Assembly (NCBI RefSeq): GCF_014204755.1
Contig: NZ_JACHLZ010000001.1
Span: 1,240,001-1,304,000, forward strand
From: Brachybacterium aquaticum
Lineage (GTDB): Bacteria > Actinomycetota > Actinomycetes > Actinomycetales > Dermabacteraceae
Length of the DNA: 64,000 nt
Direction of reading: 5' to 3'
How positions within the stretch are numbered: position 1 is the first letter of the stretch; each line of letters begins with the position of its first letter. Under the pieces are notes generated by a model, which was not told where the DNA came from, searched no databases, and saw only the letters and a list, made by a program, of their open reading frames with translations. Positions 53,814 through 62,001 of this stretch are shown here, in pieces. Made by a program: the position numbers and the translations under genes.

Positions 53814-55190
53814 GTGAGGATCGAGATCGAGCACCGACTGGACGCTCCGCAGGCGGAGGTCCTCGCCTGGCACGAACGCCCTGGCGCCCTGGTGCGCCTG
53901 ACCCCTCCGGGACTGGCCACTCCCGACGCGCCAGGCGAGGGAGGGATCCGCCCCGGACGCGTGGTGGGCGTGCGCGTGGGCCCGCCCGTGCTACCCATGC
54001 TCATCCGTCCCCACTGGGTCCTGAGGCACGTGGAGCGCGTGCCCGGCGGTGGCTTCGTCGATCAGCAGGTCCGCGGGCCCTGGCGCAGCTGGCGGCACGA
54101 GCACGGGATCCTCGACGACGCCCGCGGCGGCACGCTGCTGCGGGACGTCATCGACCTCGAGCTCCCGCGCCACCTCGACCACCTCGCCCCGCGGGTGGAG
54201 CGGGCGGTGCAGGCGCAGTTCGCCTTCCGCGCCCGGCAGCTGCGCGACGACCTCGCCTTCCACGCCCGCTGGGCGCACGTGCCGCGCCTGACCGTCGTCA
54301 TCACCGGGTCCTCCGGCCTCATCGGCACCCAGCTCGCCGCGCTGCTCGAGAGCGGCGGCCACACCGTGCGCCGCATGGTGCGGGAGGACCGGGTGGGGAC
54401 CGGCGAGGTCACTTGGGATCCGCAGACCGGGCAGCTCGATCCCGCGGACATCGAGGACGCCGACGTGGTCGTGAACCTCGCCGGGCGTTCGATCGCCACC
54501 CGCTGGACCTCCGCCGCCCGGCGCGATATCCGCTCCTCTCGCATCGGCGGCACCACGCTGATCTCACGCACCCTCGCCCAGCTCGAGGACGGACCGACCG
54601 CGCTCGTGCAGGCCTCCGCTATCGGGCTGTACGGGCCGCGCCGCCCCGGGGAGGTGCTCACCGAGGACGACCCCGGCGGGGACGGCTTCCTCGCAGACCT
54701 CGTGCGGGACTGGGAGGGCTCCACCCATGCCGCCCGTGATGCCGGGAAGCGGGTCGTCGCCGTGCGCACCGGCATGGTCCTCTCTGACGCCGGCGGCTCC
54801 CTGCTGCCCCAGCTGCCGCTCTTCTTCGCGGGCGTGGGCGGACGCCTCACCGCGAAGCGGGCGAAGCTCTCCTGGATCACCCTGGACGACATCACCCGCG
54901 CCTTCGCCCACGCCGTGCTCTCGGCGGACCTCGAGGGTCCCGTCAACGGCGTCGCCCCGCACCCCGTCACCGCCGGGGAGTTCGCCCGCACCCTCGGCGG
55001 GGTGATGCACCGGCCCTCGTTCGTGCCCGTGCCCGAGTTCGGCCCGCGCCTCTTGCTCGGCCGGGCGGGGGCCGACGAACTCGTCCGCACCGACCAGCAC
55101 GTCTCCGACGCGCACCTCGCCGCGAGCGGGTTCGTTTCCGCGCATGCGGAACTGGGGGAGGGATTGGCGCACCTGCTGGTGCGGGGGTGA
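53814..55190 (+). CDS. TIGR01777-type epimerase with N-terminal SRPBCC domain
   Basis: A 458-residue fusion. Residues about 1-155 resemble a SRPBCC (START-like) ligand-binding fold (RIEIEHRLDAPQAEVLAWHE, GPWRSWRHEHG). Residues about 160-458 are a nucleoside-diphosphate-sugar epimerase-like SDR with VVITGSSGLIGTQLAALLES, VVNLAGRSIATRWTSAARR and the DUF1731 C-terminus (RTDQHVSDAHLAASGF). The TIGR01777 family includes the cell-division-linked SulA-like protein of cyanobacteria, but substrates are unknown. GTG 53814 is chosen from the domain start and a GAAAGG upstream; TAGCGT at 53758-53763 is a possible -10. Confidence 0.85.
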   Translation: MRIEIEHRLDAPQAEVLAWHERPGALVRLTPPGLATPDAPGEGGIRPGRVVGVRVGPPVLPMLIRPHWVLRHVERVPGGGFVDQQVRGPWRSWRHEHGILDDARGGTLLRDVIDLELPRHLDHLAPRVERAVQAQFAFRARQLRDDLAFHARWAHVPRLTVVITGSSGLIGTQLAALLESGGHTVRRMVREDRVGTGEVTWDPQTGQLDPADIEDADVVVNLAGRSIATRWTSAARRDIRSSRIGGTTLISRTLAQLEDGPTALVQASAIGLYGPRRPGEVLTEDDPGGDGFLADLVRDWEGSTHAARDAGKRVVAVRTGMVLSDAGGSLLPQLPLFFAGVGGRLTAKRAKLSWITLDDITRAFAHAVLSADLEGPVNGVAPHPVTAGEFARTLGGVMHRPSFVPVPEFGPRLLLGRAGADELVRTDQHVSDAHLAASGFVSAHAELGEGLAHLLVRG

Positions 55191-55224: not shown

Positions 55225-55713
55225 TCAGGAATCCTGCGCGACGGCGAGTATCCGCCGGCACGCCGTGGCCAGCTGCCGGCTCTGCGCGGCGGTGAGGGGC
55301 TCGAAGAACAGGCGGCGCAGCTCTGTCTCGTGCGCCGGCGCAACCGACTCGACCTTCTGCCTCCCAGCATCGGTCAGTGTGACCAGCGTGGTTCGTCCGT
55401 CCTCGGGATTGGGCCGGCGGGTGAGCCATCCCTGCCGCTCGAGGCGCGTGGCCGCATTCGACAGGCGGGACAGCGTGCCGCAGACGCTGCTCGCGAGCTC
55501 GCTCATCCGCAGCGTGCGCTCCGGTGCCGTCGAGAGCCAGGACATGACCAGGTAGTCGAAGTGCCCGATGCCGCCGTCGCGCTGCATCTGGGTCTCGAGG
55601 ACCCCGGGGAGCAGGGTCAGGACATGGGCGAACGCGAACCACTGCGCGCGCTCCTCGTCGGTGAGCCGTTCGGGCTCGGCGCCGCTCGTCACGAGAGCGA
55701 GTCTAGGTCGCAT
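55225..55713 (-). CDS. MarR-family transcriptional regulator
   Basis: A 162-residue winged-helix regulator (MSELASSVCGTLSRLSNAATRLERQGWL, read as helices; then PEDGRTTLVTLTDAGRQ for the wing). Its target is unknown: the DNA just upstream was replaced by mobile elements from 55805, so any original divergent target gene may have been lost. The leader is unusually AT-rich. Confidence 0.88.
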   Translation of the reverse strand: MRPRLALVTSGAEPERLTDEERAQWFAFAHVLTLLPGVLETQMQRDGGIGHFDYLVMSWLSTAPERTLRMSELASSVCGTLSRLSNAATRLERQGWLTRRPNPEDGRTTLVTLTDAGRQKVESVAPAHETELRRLFFEPLTAAQSRQLATACRRILAVAQDS

Positions 55714-55775: not shown

Positions 55776-55824
55776 CTGCGGGCGCACTCAGCAAGCGTGA
55801 CCACTGAATCGCCTGTAAGTGTTC

Positions 55825-56045
55825 GTGGTGGCCGGCCCGGGGCTGGCTGGCAGGGTTGGTGCTGGTAGCCCGGCGCCCGTCGTGACTCCTGAATCGGCTG
55901 ACCCCTGCGGGGTGTCATTCCCGGGATCTGTCCGGCGGGGGCCGGGTGCCGGCGCCAGCCCTGGCCCACCACGATGGCTTGATCAGAAGCATGTCCACCG
56001 CCGGGAGCTCGATCTCGGCGGCGTGGCTCATTACAGGCCCGCCTC
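55825..56045 (+). ncRNA. Candidate IS110 bridge RNA, copy 1
   Basis: Two predicted folding domains lie upstream of the transposase. Domain 1 is closed by GTGGTGG (55825) with CCACCAC (55966) and GGGCTGG (55840) with CCAGCCC (55955). It holds CTGAATCG (55889-55896, same sense as the left target flank), a hairpin ACCCC-TGC-GGGGT (55901-55913), and CCCGGGAT (55920-55927, complement of the right target flank). Domain 2 holds AGAAGCAT (55985-55992, same sense as the element's right end), a stem CCACCGCCG/CGGCGGCGTGG, and TTACAGGC (56031-56038, complement of the element's left end). Order and sense agree with target-binding then donor-binding loops of known bridge RNAs. Exact ends are unknown. Confidence 0.65.
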
Positions 56046-56115
56046 GTAGTGACTCTCATCCTGGGCCGACGCCGGCAACGACGTCCCGTCCCAGCGATTC
56101 GAGAGGAACATCGTC

Positions 56116-57198
56116 ATGAACAGTCTGCCTGCCACCGTAGGGGACTTCTACCGATACGTCGTCGGAGTCGACACCCACGCCGCAACCCACTCCTACGCGA
56201 TCATCGAGGCTCCGAGCGGCGGCCTCATCGATCAGAATGTCTTCCCGACCAGCCCTGCAGGGCTGCGACGCGCACGAGAATGGATCGCGCGCCGCACCGA
56301 GGGAGACCTCGACGGTGTGCTGATCGCCGTGGAAGGAACCGGCTCTTACGGGGCAGTTCTCAGCGACGTGCTGCAGCAGGTCGGCTACCGAGTCGTCGAG
56401 GCACCGACCCCGCGTCGTGCACGAGCCCGAAGCAAGACCGACGCCCTCGACGCGCTACTCGCCGCCCGATCGAGTCTCGTCATGCCGTTGACGACGTTGC
56501 GAGATCGTCGCACCGGTGACCTGCAGTCGGCGCTCCAAGTCCTCACCGGTGCCCGCGACCAACAGAACGCCGACAGATTGCGGTGCATCAACGCCCTCAC
56601 CGCACTCGTGAGAACCCACGACCTTGGAATCGATGCACGCCGGGCCTTGACCGGAATGCAGATCGCGACGATCGCGAGCTGGCGTCGCCGAGAAGAGACG
56701 CTGGGGACAGCAACCGCCCGCGCCGAAGCGACACGCCTCGCGAAGCAGATCACGACGCTCGAGAGGGACCTCGCCGAGAACCGTGAACGGATCACTCACC
56801 TCGTGGAGACCACAGCTCCCGAGCTGCTGGACCTGCCAGGAGTCGGCGCAGTCACCGCAGCCGTGATCTTGACGGTCTGGTCGCACCCCGGCCGAATACG
56901 CAACGAGGCCGCATTCGCCATGATCGCAGGAGTCTGCCCGATCCCGGCCTCCTCGGGTAACACCACGAGGCATCGCCTCAACCGCGGTGGAGACCGACGG
57001 CTGAACCGCGCGCTGAACACCATCGTGCTCACCAGGATGCGCACCGATCCTGCCACCCGCACCTACATCGAGCGGCGCCAAAGCGAGGGCAAGACATCCA
57101 GAGAGATCCGACGCTGCCTCAAGCGCTACATCAGCCGCCAGATCTTCCGATCACTCACAGTTGCCCACCCCGTCCCGGACGCCGCCGCCGCGGCTTGA
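56116..57198 (+). CDS. IS110-family transposase (DEDD/Ser recombinase), copy 1
   Basis: A 360-residue recombinase. The RuvC-like N-terminal domain shows the DEDD residues in VVGVDTHAATHSYA, VEGTGSYG and KTDALDALLA; the C-terminal Tnp_20 domain shows LPGVGAVTAAVILTVW and the catalytic serine region PIPASSGNTTRHRLNRGG. Length is normal and no stop interrupts it, so the element looks active. GAGAGGA precedes ATG 56116. The copy at 60213-61295 differs at two residues (Ser/Asn near 35, Thr/Lys near 349). Confidence 0.93.
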   Translation: MNSLPATVGDFYRYVVGVDTHAATHSYAIIEAPSGGLIDQNVFPTSPAGLRRAREWIARRTEGDLDGVLIAVEGTGSYGAVLSDVLQQVGYRVVEAPTPRRARARSKTDALDALLAARSSLVMPLTTLRDRRTGDLQSALQVLTGARDQQNADRLRCINALTALVRTHDLGIDARRALTGMQIATIASWRRREETLGTATARAEATRLAKQITTLERDLAENRERITHLVETTAPELLDLPGVGAVTAAVILTVWSHPGRIRNEAAFAMIAGVCPIPASSGNTTRHRLNRGGDRRLNRALNTIVLTRMRTDPATRTYIERRQSEGKTSREIRRCLKRYISRQIFRSLTVAHPVPDAAAAA

Positions 57199-57258
57199 CA
57201 CAACATAGAAGCATCCCGGGTGTGGTGGAGGCTCTGAATCCACGGGAGGATGAGGAGC

Positions 57259-57521
57259 ATGGCAGCACCGAGGAAGTACCCCGACGAGCTTCGGGAGAGA
57301 GCCACGAGGATGGCAGTTCAGTCACGGCGCGATCCATCGACGAGGTCGGGAACGTTTCGCCGTGTGGGCGAGCAGCTCGGGATCAATCCTGAGACTCTGA
57401 GGAACTGGGTCGTGCAGGCCGAGGTTGACGAGGGGCACCGTCCCGGGACCACGACCAGCGAGTCCCAGCGCCTGGTCGAGCTGGAGAAGGAAGTGCGTGA
57501 GCTGCGCAGGGAGAACTCGAT
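57259..57521 (+). pseudogene. IS3-family orfA, 5' part, cut by IS30
   Basis: ATG 57259 begins MAAPRKYPDELRERATRMAV, a helix-turn-helix IS3 OrfA, with GINPETLRNWVVQAEVDEG and a leucine-zipper-like end LVELEKEVRELRREN. IS30 interrupts it after AACTCGAT. Joining the flanks minus one GAT restores the in-frame reading ...RRENSILRSASAFFAAELDR, ending at TGA 58811-58813. GAGGAG precedes the ATG. Confidence 0.88.
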
Positions 57522-58755
57522 GGCGGATTCAAGCGGTCAGTGCAACGAGTCCTGTGAGATGAGGCAGTCACTGATCACAGGAGGATCCGGATGCAGGGCA
57601 GGCACGGTCATCTCAGCCGGGAGCAGAAGCAGCTCGGGCTCAGGCTGCACGGGAAGGGCTGGCGGCTGGTCGACATCGCGAAAGAGATCGGCTGCAGCGC
57701 GCCGATGGTCGGCATCATGGCCCGCACCGGCAGGCACCTTGACGCCAGGCCGTTCGGCTGGGAGCCACGGCAGGGCTGTCTGACGATCCACGAGCGCGAG
57801 CAGATCCTGCTGGGGATCAATCGTGGCGATACCTTCACCGCGATCGCCGAGCAGCTGGGGCGTGCGGTGTCGACCGTCAGCCGTGAGGTGTAGCGCGGCG
57901 GGGGTCGCTGCGGCTACTCGGCGTGGCGTGGTCATGAACGTGCCCGCGAGCAGGCGCGTCGACCGAAGCCGTTCAAGCTTGCGTCGGGCCGGCTGCTCGA
58001 GGAGGTCGCCAGCCGGCTGGAGCAACTGTGGTCACCTGAGGAGATCGCGGCGCGCCTACGGTTGGATCACGCCGACGACCCGGAGATGCGCGTGAGCCAC
58101 GAGACGATCTACCAGTCGCTGTTCGTGCAGGGCCGAGGCGAACTGCGCCGTGAGCTGGCGCGGTGCCTGCGGTCCGGAAGAGCGGCCCGCAAGCCCCGCC
58201 GAACCACGGACGGTCGCGGCCGCATCCCCGGCATGGTCATGCTCAGCGAACGCCCCGCAGAAGCCGACGACCGCGCCGTGCCAGGCCACTGGGAAGGTGA
58301 TCTCATCCTCGGCGAGGGCAGCCGCAGCGCCGTCGGCACGCTCGTTGAGCGCTCGACGCGAATGACACTGCTGCTGCACCTGCCCGACGGCAAGAGCGCC
58401 GAGCAGGTCGAGGCCGCGATGCGCGCCGCAATCAGCAAGCTGCCGCCCTCGTTGATCCGAACGATCACCTGGGACCAAGGCGCGGAGATGTCCAAGCACG
58501 CCGCGTTCACCATCGCCACAGGAATCCCGATCTACTTCTGCGATCCCCACTCGCCCTGGCAGCGGGGGAGCAACGAGAACACCAACGGCCTGCTGCGCCA
58601 GTACCTGCCCAAAGGCACCGACCTGAGCGTCGTCAGCCGCGAGAAGTTGGACGCGATCCAGGACAGCCTCAACGGACGCCCCCGCAAGACACTGGGCTAT
58701 CTGACACCATCAGAGAAGCTCGCAGAGTTCCTTGCGCCCACCGCTTGAATCCGCC
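57522..58755 (+). mobile_element. IS30-family element in IS3 orfA
   Basis: The 1,234-bp element has inverted ends starting GGCGGATTCAAGCGGT on both sides and is flanked by a 3-bp direct repeat GAT (57519-57521 and 58756-58758). Removing element and one GAT restores the IS3 orfA frame, which confirms the boundaries. Confidence 0.88.
57591..58748 (+). pseudogene. IS30-family transposase with an in-frame amber codon
   Basis: The frame encodes a normal 385-codon IS30 transposase: N-terminal helix-turn-helix (LSREQKQLGLRLHGKG, then IAEQLGRAVSTVSREV), and the DDE core VPGHWEGDLILG, TWDQGAEMSKH and SPWQRGSNENTNGLLRQYLP. Codon 101 is TAG (57891-57893), directly after SREV, and the frame continues without further stops to 58748. 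It is therefore a pseudogene by one nonsense change, unless the stop is read through. Confidence 0.88.
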
Positions 58756-58813
58756 GATCCTGAGGTCAGCCTCGGCTTTTTTCGCGGCGGAGCTCGACCG
58801 CCAACAGCGTTGA
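58756..58813 (+). pseudogene. IS3 orfA 3' end with -1 slippery site
   Basis: This is the displaced end of orfA (ILRSASAFFAAELDRQQR). The heptamer T TTT TTC at 58777-58783 has the X XXY YYZ form for -1 frameshifting and connects the orfA frame to the orfB frame, as expected for IS3 elements. Confidence 0.75.
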
Positions 58814-59316
58814 TCGTGGAGTACATCGACCAGTGCAGGCATGAGTTCGGCGCCTGGCCGGTCTGTCGAACGCTGACCGCAGCGGGCACGCAGATCGCGC
58901 CGAGCACGTACTACGCGTTCAAGACCCGCCCACCCTCGAAGCGAGCACTACGCGACGAGGAACCGCTGGTCGAGATCCACCGGGTCCATGCGGCGAACTT
59001 CGGCGTCTACGGGGCGAAGAAGGTCCACGCCCAGCTGCGCCGCGAGGGCGTCGTCATCGCGCGTTGCACGGTCGAGCGGCTCATGCGCGGCGCGGGGTTG
59101 CGAGGGATCAGCCGGGCCAAGGGCCCGCGCACCACGATCTCAGGTCGCGGCACCGATAATCGTCCTGACCTCGTCGAACGTGACTTCACCGCGACCGCTC
59201 CGAACCAGCTGGGTGTCGCTTATTGTACATCGCTACTCGAATCGTTCGCGAAGTACGTCGCGCCGTCGTTGGGGTGGAAGCCCAATACGGAGGGCCCCGT
59301 CGAGGGGTACACCGGC

Positions 59317-59322
59317 TAGGCT
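59317..59322 (+). promoter_or_regulatory. -10 box of the leaderless cargo gene
   Basis: TAGGCT is followed by 6 nt (GACCCT) and ATG 59329. Confidence 0.5.
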
Positions 59323-59328
59323 GACCCT

Positions 59329-59613
59329 ATGGGCGAAGTGCAGTTGACAGGCCGACTTGTTTGTCGAACGACCGAGGAGTCGAATCTTGTCAAGCGATTC
59401 TTGCATGATCACGTTTCACTTACTCGCTTAGAACCCGGGTGCCTATCGTTTGAGGTTACGCAGACCGACGACCCACTTGTTTGGCGAGTCGAAGAACGAT
59501 TCAATAGCGAGGCTGCTTTCGAATGTCATCAAGACCGCGTGGCGTCCAGCGAGTGGGGGCGGATGACCGCGGGGATCACACGCGACTATTCGATCGTCAA
59601 GCACACCGGATAG
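59329..59613 (+). CDS. Antibiotic-biosynthesis/quinol monooxygenase-type protein in IS3
   Basis: A 94-residue single ABM-domain protein (ferredoxin-like fold), as in YgiN quinol monooxygenases: VQLTGRLVCRTTEESNLVK, LTRLEPGCLSFEVTQTDDP, WRVEERFNSEAAFECHQ. It is complete and has its own -10 box, so it may be expressed despite lying inside an IS. Base use is far less GC-rich than its neighbours (near half by eye), which indicates transfer from elsewhere. A role in quinone or reactive-compound oxidation is family knowledge only. Confidence 0.78.
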   Translation: MGEVQLTGRLVCRTTEESNLVKRFLHDHVSLTRLEPGCLSFEVTQTDDPLVWRVEERFNSEAAFECHQDRVASSEWGRMTAGITRDYSIVKHTG

Positions 59614-59625
59614 AGGTTGCCTTGA

Positions 59626-60183
<558 letters not shown>

Positions 60184-60212
60184 TAACAAACCCGGGATGC
60201 TTCTATGTTGTG

Positions 60213-61295
60213 TCAAGCCGCGGCGGCGGCGTCCGGGACGGGGTGGGCAACTTTGAGTGATCGGAAGATCTGGCGGCTGATGTAGCGCTTGAGGCAGCGT
60301 CGGATCTCTCTGGATGTCTTGCCCTCGCTTTGGCGCCGCTCGATGTAGGTGCGGGTGGCAGGATCGGTGCGCATCCTGGTGAGCACGATGGTGTTCAGCG
60401 CGCGGTTCAGCCGTCGGTCTCCACCGCGGTTGAGGCGATGCCTCGTGGTGTTACCCGAGGAGGCCGGGATCGGGCAGACTCCTGCGATCATGGCGAATGC
60501 GGCCTCGTTGCGTATTCGGCCGGGGTGCGACCAGACCGTCAAGATCACGGCTGCGGTGACTGCGCCGACTCCTGGCAGGTCCAGCAGCTCGGGAGCTGTG
60601 GTCTCCACGAGGTGAGTGATCCGTTCACGGTTCTCGGCGAGGTCCCTCTCGAGCGTCGTGATCTGCTTCGCGAGGCGTGTCGCTTCGGCGCGGGCGGTTG
60701 CTGTCCCCAGCGTCTCTTCTCGGCGACGCCAGCTCGCGATCGTCGCGATCTGCATTCCGGTCAAGGCCCGGCGTGCATCGATTCCAAGGTCGTGGGTTCT
60801 CACGAGTGCGGTGAGGGCGTTGATGCACCGCAATCTGTCGGCGTTCTGTTGGTCGCGGGCACCGGTGAGGACTTGGAGCGCCGACTGCAGGTCACCGGTG
60901 CGACGATCTCGCAACGTCGTCAACGGCATGACGAGACTCGATCGGGCGGCGAGTAGCGCGTCGAGGGCGTCGGTCTTGCTTCGGGCTCGTGCACGACGCG
61001 GGGTCGGTGCCTCGACGACTCGGTAGCCGACCTGCTGCAGCACGTCGCTGAGAACTGCCCCGTAAGAGCCGGTTCCTTCCACGGCGATCAGCACACCGTC
61101 GAGGTCTCCCTCGGTGCGGCGCGCGATCCATTCTCGTGCGCGTCGCAGCCCTGCAGGGCTGGTCGGGAAGACATTCTGATCGATGAGGCCGCCGTTCGGA
61201 GCCTCGATGATCGCGTAGGAGTGGGTTGCGGCGTGGGTGTCGACTCCGACGACGTATCGGTAGAAGTCCCCTACGGTGGCAGGCAGACTGTTCAT
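60213..61295 (-). CDS. IS110-family transposase, copy 2
   Basis: A 360-residue IS110 recombinase, intact, with the same DEDD and serine motifs as copy 1; two amino-acid differences (Asn in EAPNGGLID and Lys in RSLKVAHP). It is transcribed toward the IS3 interior. Confidence 0.93.
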   Translation of the reverse strand: MNSLPATVGDFYRYVVGVDTHAATHSYAIIEAPNGGLIDQNVFPTSPAGLRRAREWIARRTEGDLDGVLIAVEGTGSYGAVLSDVLQQVGYRVVEAPTPRRARARSKTDALDALLAARSSLVMPLTTLRDRRTGDLQSALQVLTGARDQQNADRLRCINALTALVRTHDLGIDARRALTGMQIATIASWRRREETLGTATARAEATRLAKQITTLERDLAENRERITHLVETTAPELLDLPGVGAVTAAVILTVWSHPGRIRNEAAFAMIAGVCPIPASSGNTTRHRLNRGGDRRLNRALNTIVLTRMRTDPATRTYIERRQSEGKTSREIRRCLKRYISRQIFRSLKVAHPVPDAAAAA

Positions 61296-61365
61296 GACGA
61301 TGTTCCTCTCGAATCGCTGGGACGGGACGTCGTTGCCGGCGTCGGCCCAGGATGAGAGTCACTAC

Positions 61366-61586
61366 GAGGCGGGCCTGTAATGAGCCACGCCGCCGAGATC
61401 GAGCTCCCGGCGGTGGACATGCTTCTGATCAAGCCATCGTGGTGGGCCAGGGCTGGCGCCGGCACCCGGCCCCCGCCGGACAGATCCCGGGAATGACACC
61501 CCGCAGGGGTCAGCCGATTCAGGAGTCACGACGGGCGCCGGGCTACCAGCACCAACCCTGCCAGCCAGCCCCGGGCCGGCCACCAC
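61366..61586 (-). ncRNA. Candidate IS110 bridge RNA, copy 2
   Basis: This is the same non-coding left-end sequence as copy 1 in reverse. The 76-codon frame across the region translates identically in both copies, so the guide segments are the same. Confidence 0.6.
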
Positions 61587-61607
61587 GAACACTTACAGGC
61601 GATTCAG

Positions 61608-61709
61608 CATCTCGGCCTGGACGTCCTCGCCCGGTGCCGCCTCAGCCTCGTCCCCGACACCAACACCGAGGGGGTCACCACCAGTACCCTGACCGCCCTG
61701 GCCGCCTGA
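61608..61709 (+). pseudogene. C-terminal fragment of a truncated coding sequence
   Basis: Directly after the IS3/IS110 edge an open frame reads LGLDVLARCRLSLVPDTNTE, then GVTTSTLTALAA and TGA 61707-61709. Nearly every codon ends in G or C, so it is real coding sequence whose 5' part is missing. The product is not recognised. Nothing left of the mobile region continues it. Confidence 0.5.
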
Positions 61710-61750
61710 CCAATCAGCGAAGGATCGCTACACCACTTCCCGGGACTTGA

Positions 61751-61903
61751 CCGAACGTGCAGGCGTTACAGCGGATGCTCGGGCATGAGAGTGCAACGAT
61801 GGCGCTTGACGTGTAGGCCTCGCCGGTGGACGACGATCTACGGGACCTCGGCGCGTCGATTGATGCTGCTGCGTACCCAGTGCGTACCGGCGATGCCGCC
61901 TAG
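61751..61903 (+). pseudogene. Tyrosine integrase C-terminal remnant
   Basis: The frame NVQALQRMLGHESATMALDV, amber, ASPVDDDLRDLGASID matches the end of phage-type tyrosine recombinases (the box with conserved LGH, then the nucleophile). The amber codon occupies the place of the catalytic Tyr (TAC to TAG). An upstream in-frame TGA at 61748 and missing N-terminus confirm decay. It ends 22 bp from the 3' end of the tRNA-Met gene, a usual attachment site layout. Confidence 0.7.
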
Positions 61904-61924: not shown

Positions 61925-62001
61925 TGGTAGCCCAGGCGGGGCTTGAACCCGCGACCGACGGATTATGAGTCCGCTGCTCTAACCGGCTGAGCTACTGGGC
62001 C
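61925..62001 (-). tRNA. tRNA-Met (CAT anticodon, probably elongator)
   Basis: A 77-nt cloverleaf including an encoded CCA: acceptor GGCCCAG/CTGGGCT, anticodon loop CTCATAA with anticodon CAT, T-loop TTCAAGC in GCGGGTTCAAGCCCCGC. The loop context fits elongator Met; an Ile2 identity (lysidine-modified CAT) is the alternative. Its 3' end faces the integrase remnant. Confidence 0.9.

Follow-up and report, generated by a model that had tools for sequence, protein, structure and literature searches.

Prophages, genomic islands, and integrative and mobilizable elements are well known to carry tyrosine integrases that act at the 3' ends of tRNA genes, as set out in PMC5704250. The locus described here resembles the elements in that account, as an integrase sequence lies beside the target tRNA, the tRNA is whole, and far-side repeats occur in relatives. 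It differs from them in that about 50 codons of the integrase are left, the nucleophile is replaced by a stop codon, and the far repeat was not found. A parallel is also offered by the predicted provirus IMGVR_UViG_2867103336_000002, in which a tRNA-Met end lies beside an integrase ORF, and which is 97% identical over 4.15 kb to an island of a congeneric genome (G007). Both have an integrase converging on the same tRNA-Met 3' end as the present locus, whereas their integrase belongs to another lineage and the G007 island still has its repeat. The G007 integrase ORF loses its frame just before the catalytic tyrosine, whereas the provirus contig has one ORF running through it.

The window, a stretch of 64,000 nucleotides from Brachybacterium aquaticum, contains next to tRNA-Met an integrase stub that is very probably the remnant of an integrative element once inserted in the 3' end of this tRNA and then cut by an insertion sequence (Table 1). 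Dead stubs of this kind are well known, and this one is an unremarkable trace of a mobile element that has been lost.

Table 1. Features of the window between the epimerase gene and tRNA-Met
Feature	Position	Strand	Remarks
Epimerase/DUF1731 gene	53814..55190	+	End abuts the tRNA in G003; left limit of inserted DNA
MarR-family regulator	55225..55713	-	
IS3-family element	55805..61606	+	Ends TGAATCGCC...GGCGATTCA; contains two IS110 copies, one IS30 and an insert with a gene
IS110 copy 1	55814..57215	+	In left IS3 terminal repeat; right edge uncertain by a few bases
IS30-family element	57522..58755	+	Inside IS3
ALIL pseudoknot match	58774-58902		In IS3
Insert of about 424 bp	59220..59643	+	In IS3 transposase gene; ABM-domain ORF 59329-59613
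IS110 copy 2, inverted	60196..61597	-	In right IS3 terminal repeat; left edge uncertain by a few bases
IS256-family element, right-hand fragment	61607..61752	+	Alignment from 61611; ends ...GGGACTTGACC
Tyrosine integrase C-terminal stub	61753..61903	+	Homology from 61754; own stop codon 61901-61903
TAG in catalytic tyrosine column	61814..61816	+	Alignment with 35 relatives
tRNA-Met (CAT)	61925..62001	-	Intact, CCA encoded; 3' end is the integration target

Homology identifies 61753-61903 as the part of a tyrosine-integrase gene that encodes the C-terminus. When integrases of 340-500 residues were compared by tblastn with the 4 kb beside the tRNA, 23 matches were obtained, and the best 14 of these, with E values of 2.8e-9 to 3.1e-7, all start at 61754. 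On the + strand, the frame from 61751 to 61903 gives PNVQALQRMLGHESATMALDV, a stop, ASPVDDDLRDLGASIDAAAYPVRTGDAA and a second stop, and the stub is read as ...NVQALQRMLGHESATMALDV, stop, ASPVDDDLRDLGASIDAAAYPVRTGDAA, stop. The first 21 stub codons were also recovered by phmmer (E 6.5e-5) among short ORFs of 35 loci, using 33 queries that comprised nine tRNA-adjacent ORFs and 24 other integrases. A Pfam search with the 50-residue stub, which is too short for it, gave no family at E<=1 and did not reach a gathering score, and PHROG 1 matched at E 0.28 only. The LGH block and the next helix ahead of the nucleophile, which belong to PF00589, are present in the stub. Arg I, Lys, and HxxR are catalytic residues of the tyrosine recombinase/integrase family (PF00589), and the stub is without them, its homology beginning only at 61754 with IS256 upstream. 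The stub is a pseudogene rather than a working member of PF00589, and most likely has no activity; an excised or circular form would not be expected from it.

The nucleophilic tyrosine of PF00589 is likewise missing, with TAG in its place. In an alignment with 35 relatives (a 36th was dropped as too short), this column holds tyrosine in 34 and histidine in one short ORF. The same column contains cysteine and phenylalanine in two stubs of the same lineage, those of G020 and G028, respectively. Conservation in at least 80% of the 35 relatives is seen at 25 columns, of which the stub of the present genome (G000) has lost 9, that of G020 14, and that of G028 10. Under independent decay, a given column would be lost in all three stubs with a probability of about 8%, which amounts to 2 of the 25, and 5 of the 25 were observed, namely the tyrosine and four others. 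One of those four is isoleucine in all three stubs, perhaps a lineage difference. Targeted loss of the tyrosine in the three stubs was considered, and these counts were not taken as a signal of it; its loss fits ordinary decay, and the TAG would have come about through a single-base substitution after selection on the gene had ceased. The sequence-only reading had recognised here an integrase C-terminus with TAG at the nucleophile position. The tblastn, phmmer, and tyrosine-column results bear out the former, and the tyrosine in 34 of 35 relatives the latter. Its span of 61751-61903 stands as an integrase fragment and gives way at the start, where the first two bases (61751-61752) are the IS256 end.

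The stubs of G020 and G028 are 57% and 66% identical to that of the window and share with it a C-terminal tail, ...GASIDAAAYPVRT, that is absent from the 35 others aligned, as well as a TCTGA(A/C)C TGG junction with the tRNA. Like the window stub, they lie 21-30 bp from tRNA-Met, are dead, and have no tRNA-end repeat that could be seen. They differ from it in the cysteine or phenylalanine that takes the place of TAG, and in the longer broken catalytic domain of G028, much of which is kept with its frames broken, indicating descent from a full integrase. The IS256 piece has no match in G020. In searches for an intact integrase of this lineage, the highest score was 56 bits across 394 genomes of the class and, apart from the stubs, 49 bits across 47 genomes of the family, and none was confirmed in viral contigs. 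The three stubs reach 106-110 bits against a profile made from themselves, which renders the gap to 56 bits partly circular.

Between the last base of the stub's stop codon (61903) and the first of tRNA-Met (61925) there are 21 bp, across which the two 3' ends face each other, and the integrase end is thus near to and converging on the tRNA, as in elements at tRNA 3' ends. The tRNA is named by its CAT anticodon, a name that here covers elongator Met and Ile forms alike. Across the genus, all 38 genomes of the set gave a match, and the tRNA-Met locus was read in 35, the count leaving aside the fragmented G026, G029, and G032. An integrase or stub converging on the tRNA within about 120 bp was found at 14 of the 35 loci: eight long ORFs of 430-503 residues (G006, G007, G010, G012, G014, G023, G025, and G036) and six stubs (G000, G002, G004, G008, G020, and G028). 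No integrase was found at the other 21 loci in a search that reached up to 6 kb left of the tRNA and covered relatives of the 33 phmmer queries; among these, G015 and G030 offer 227 and 1145 bases on that side. An integrase profile built from 24 relatives missed G006 and the stubs of G002, G004, and G008, which phmmer recovered with the tRNA-adjacent ORFs as queries.

Pfam, applied to 10 of the 14, detected PF00589 in all eight long ORFs and nothing in the G004 stub, which was identified by phmmer at E 1.1e-14, as the G002 stub was at E 4e-8. For G008 (L118:5014-5931), Pfam gives only an FGE-sulfatase domain in the first part of the ORF; 87 of its last residues are 69% identical to the G006 integrase and retain the tyrosine. 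Since the G008 ORF was itself a phmmer query, the stub assignment there comes from the alignment with the G006 integrase. Related integrases were compared at 36 loci, nine of them in the genus and 27 in other members of the order; at 19 of the 36, a tRNA or tmRNA 3' end faces the integrase within 400 bp of its stop codon, and three of the 19 are tRNA-Met. The recurrence of stubs (6 of 35 loci, in several lineages) could be read as a sign that the tRNA flank is kept, for instance as a working 3' trailer of the tRNA or as arm-binding DNA of the integrase, an idea to which very little probability is given; if true, the kept arm-binding DNA would leave the site attractive to later elements, the rest of each being lost.

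Integration predicts copies of the tRNA 3' end, and copies of 35-42 bp with 95-100% identity were present, as predicted, in seven of the eight genomes with a long integrase ORF. The repeat lies 8.1 kb from the tRNA in G007 and 7.6 kb in G010, and G023 has two repeats, which delimit islands in tandem, one of about 9 kb and the other of about 15 kb. In G012, the repeat is about 203 kb from the tRNA and 4.6 kb beyond the core anchor gene (G012:C1:785800-988620), so that a very large or compound island may occupy this tRNA-Met. In G014, G025, and G036, the repeat is on another contig than the tRNA and the pairing is unproven. A copy is also held by G029, whose locus is outside the 35 read, and weaker copies (84%) are found in G002 and G037. 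G006 has a 47-bp copy of 94% identity after a second integrase ORF (L158:4661-6310, G006:C18), on a contig without the tRNA, and this copy is not readable as a simple attR. No attR was found in the window or in the whole present genome, where far weaker matches were listed, so a copy of 35-42 bp should have been seen. The converging integrases and stubs, together with these repeats, support the view that mobile elements have integrated again and again at the 3' end of tRNA-Met in several species of the genus.

At least two relatives are free of the inserted DNA. In G003, the epimerase frame (53.8-55.2 kb of the window) runs to the tRNA, its stop codon overlapping the tRNA end, which makes the DNA between 55190 and 61924 an insertion when compared with G003. 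In G021, the match to the gene at 52.1-52.6 kb of the window stops 98 bp before the tRNA. The MarR gene has matches in 37 of the 38 genomes, at no more than 48% identity outside its own genome, and the other genomes yielded no close relative of this gene beside their tRNA-Met; the only listed match within an island at this tRNA is G023:C1:880107-880538, at 28% identity. The proposal that the integrase fragment sits beside its attachment tRNA is thus upheld by the 14 of 35 converging loci and the tRNA 3'-end copies, and the synteny comparison proposed with it yielded both relatives without the insertion and relatives with a long integrase ORF and a second copy of the tRNA 3' end. Neither a fragment belonging to an unrelated gene nor an island of ancestral core was seen. 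The integrase end was rightly described as close to the tRNA, at a distance that is 21 bp rather than 22.

The upstream boundary of the stub is formed by an IS256-family fragment, which is 89% identical over 142 bp to a sequence in G025 and 79% identical to one in a Kocuria plasmid whose annotation gives the transposase as IS256. Its right end occurs at eight other places in the same genome, seven with 86-92% identity and one with 71%. Past the base equivalent to 61752, the sequence is different at all eight, and an 8-bp flanking duplication starts exactly past that base at three of them and is absent at five. The integrase homology begins 1-2 bp after this end, and the integrase gene was therefore most likely cut by an IS insertion. 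On its other side, the IS256 piece has in turn been truncated, at about 61607, by the end of the IS3-family element. The missing half of the integrase was sought at the eight IS256 places; at none of them is the left flank the sequence with which the stub begins, GAACGTGC, and the integrase profile found no match there among ORFs of at least 30 residues. A second broken integrase of the genome, at 408.9-409.5 kb, was rejected as the missing partner, its second piece reaching position 168 of 172 of PF00589; no tRNA lies in the 5 kb surrounding it.

The 5.8-kb block left of the stub is layered IS, not island cargo. The two IS110 copies are 99.65% identical, inverted like the IS3 ends, and split each end at the same point. 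An uninterrupted IS3 relative in G012 has the ends TGAATCGCCCCGGGT.../...ACCCGGGGCGATTCA, and such ends are found in the window at 55805 and 61606. Further copies of IS110, IS30, and IS3 occur in this genome; for the ABM insert, no other copy was found among the genome matches listed. A plasmid search with the IS block returned seven records, none covering 80% of it. The IS3 flanks show no matching target duplication in the window; the uninterrupted G012 relative has none either, so the absence is weak evidence for a deletion beside the element.

Several other origins of this DNA can be weighed against an integration followed by IS disruption. The stub is short and falls below the Pfam models, and it might be taken for a chance reading frame; yet the best 14 queries share one start base in a 4-kb target and homologous stubs lie at the same spot in two other species. 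The tblastn matches refute a chance frame, whose probability is next to nil. Passive arrival, by IS256-IS256 recombination or within an IS256-bounded segment and without any integration at this tRNA, would suit a stub that begins at an IS256 end in a genome where no attR was found. It is nevertheless highly improbable, given that the stub stops just 21 bp short of the tRNA, oriented as integrases beside tRNAs usually are, and that stubs of the same lineage, with the shared junction, occupy the same spot in G020 and G028.

A larger claim is that the entire 55.2-61.9 kb, including MarR and ABM, is the eroded body of one integrated element, and the sequence-only reading had derived the whole of 55.8-61.9 kb from such an element. 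Everything from the epimerase end to the tRNA is indeed missing from G003, and the distant MarR match in the G023 island indicates that such regulators can be cargo. Against this, 5.8 of the 6.7 kb form one block of nested insertion sequences that recur at other places in this genome, the ABM ORF lies inside IS3, and no attR-like sequence adjoins the epimerase. The MarR gene is outside the 55.8-61.9 kb, on its left, and nothing ties it to the integrated element. A single eroded body is thus unlikely. The extent given earlier does not hold, as 55805-61606 is the IS block, followed by the IS256 fragment, and only about 150 bp (61753-61903) are recognisably from the integrated element; the origin at this tRNA stands.

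For a remnant of an element integrated at tRNA-Met, an order of events can be inferred from what is observed, namely the stub, the use of the site, the insert-free relatives, the IS256 end, and its contact with the IS3 element. A prophage or other integrative element with a tyrosine integrase would have entered the tRNA-Met 3' end by site-specific recombination, leaving the tRNA whole and the integrase 3' end adjoining it, the usual attL layout. An IS256 copy would have jumped into the integrase gene, and an IS3 copy would then have landed in or beside that IS256. Subsequently, IS110 copies would have entered both IS3 ends and IS30 the IS3 middle. A deletion from the IS3 left end, to which only the missing sequence points, may have removed the remaining IS256, integrase, and element, attR included. 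The lack of a detected attR, of an intact integrase scoring near the stubs, and of an integrase at 21 of the 35 loci counts against this explanation. The locus shows that, throughout an actinobacterial genus, one tRNA-Met 3' end is a site of recurrent integration, and it suggests a plausible sequence of steps in which an integrated element is reduced to a stub by insertion sequences. Its main importance is for annotation, where "pseudogene" is the proper label for the stub and the block on its left is to be entered as IS, not cargo.

Whether CCA is encoded in the tRNA-Met gene differs between species of the genus (61925-61927 in the window, and relatives), perhaps through elements replacing the tRNA 3' end on integration. 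Within the IS block, the ABM ORF is complete, and its insert of about 424 bp is bounded by imperfect direct repeats of about 20 bp. All four near-identical IS110 copies that were read follow TGAATCG(C/G)C (55805-55814 and 61597-61606 in the window; L179, L180), three of them in a recognisable IS3 end. According to the title of Partridge and Hall (2003), as cited in PMC11208160 and PMC11187229, IS4321 and IS5075 target Tn21-family terminal repeats, and IS110 at a fixed point in the IS3 ends resembles this arrangement. Additionally, of five IS30 copies read, four occupy an identical site, each in a different IS3 copy, with two in either orientation (L180-L183), which suggests that IS30 has a strong target preference.
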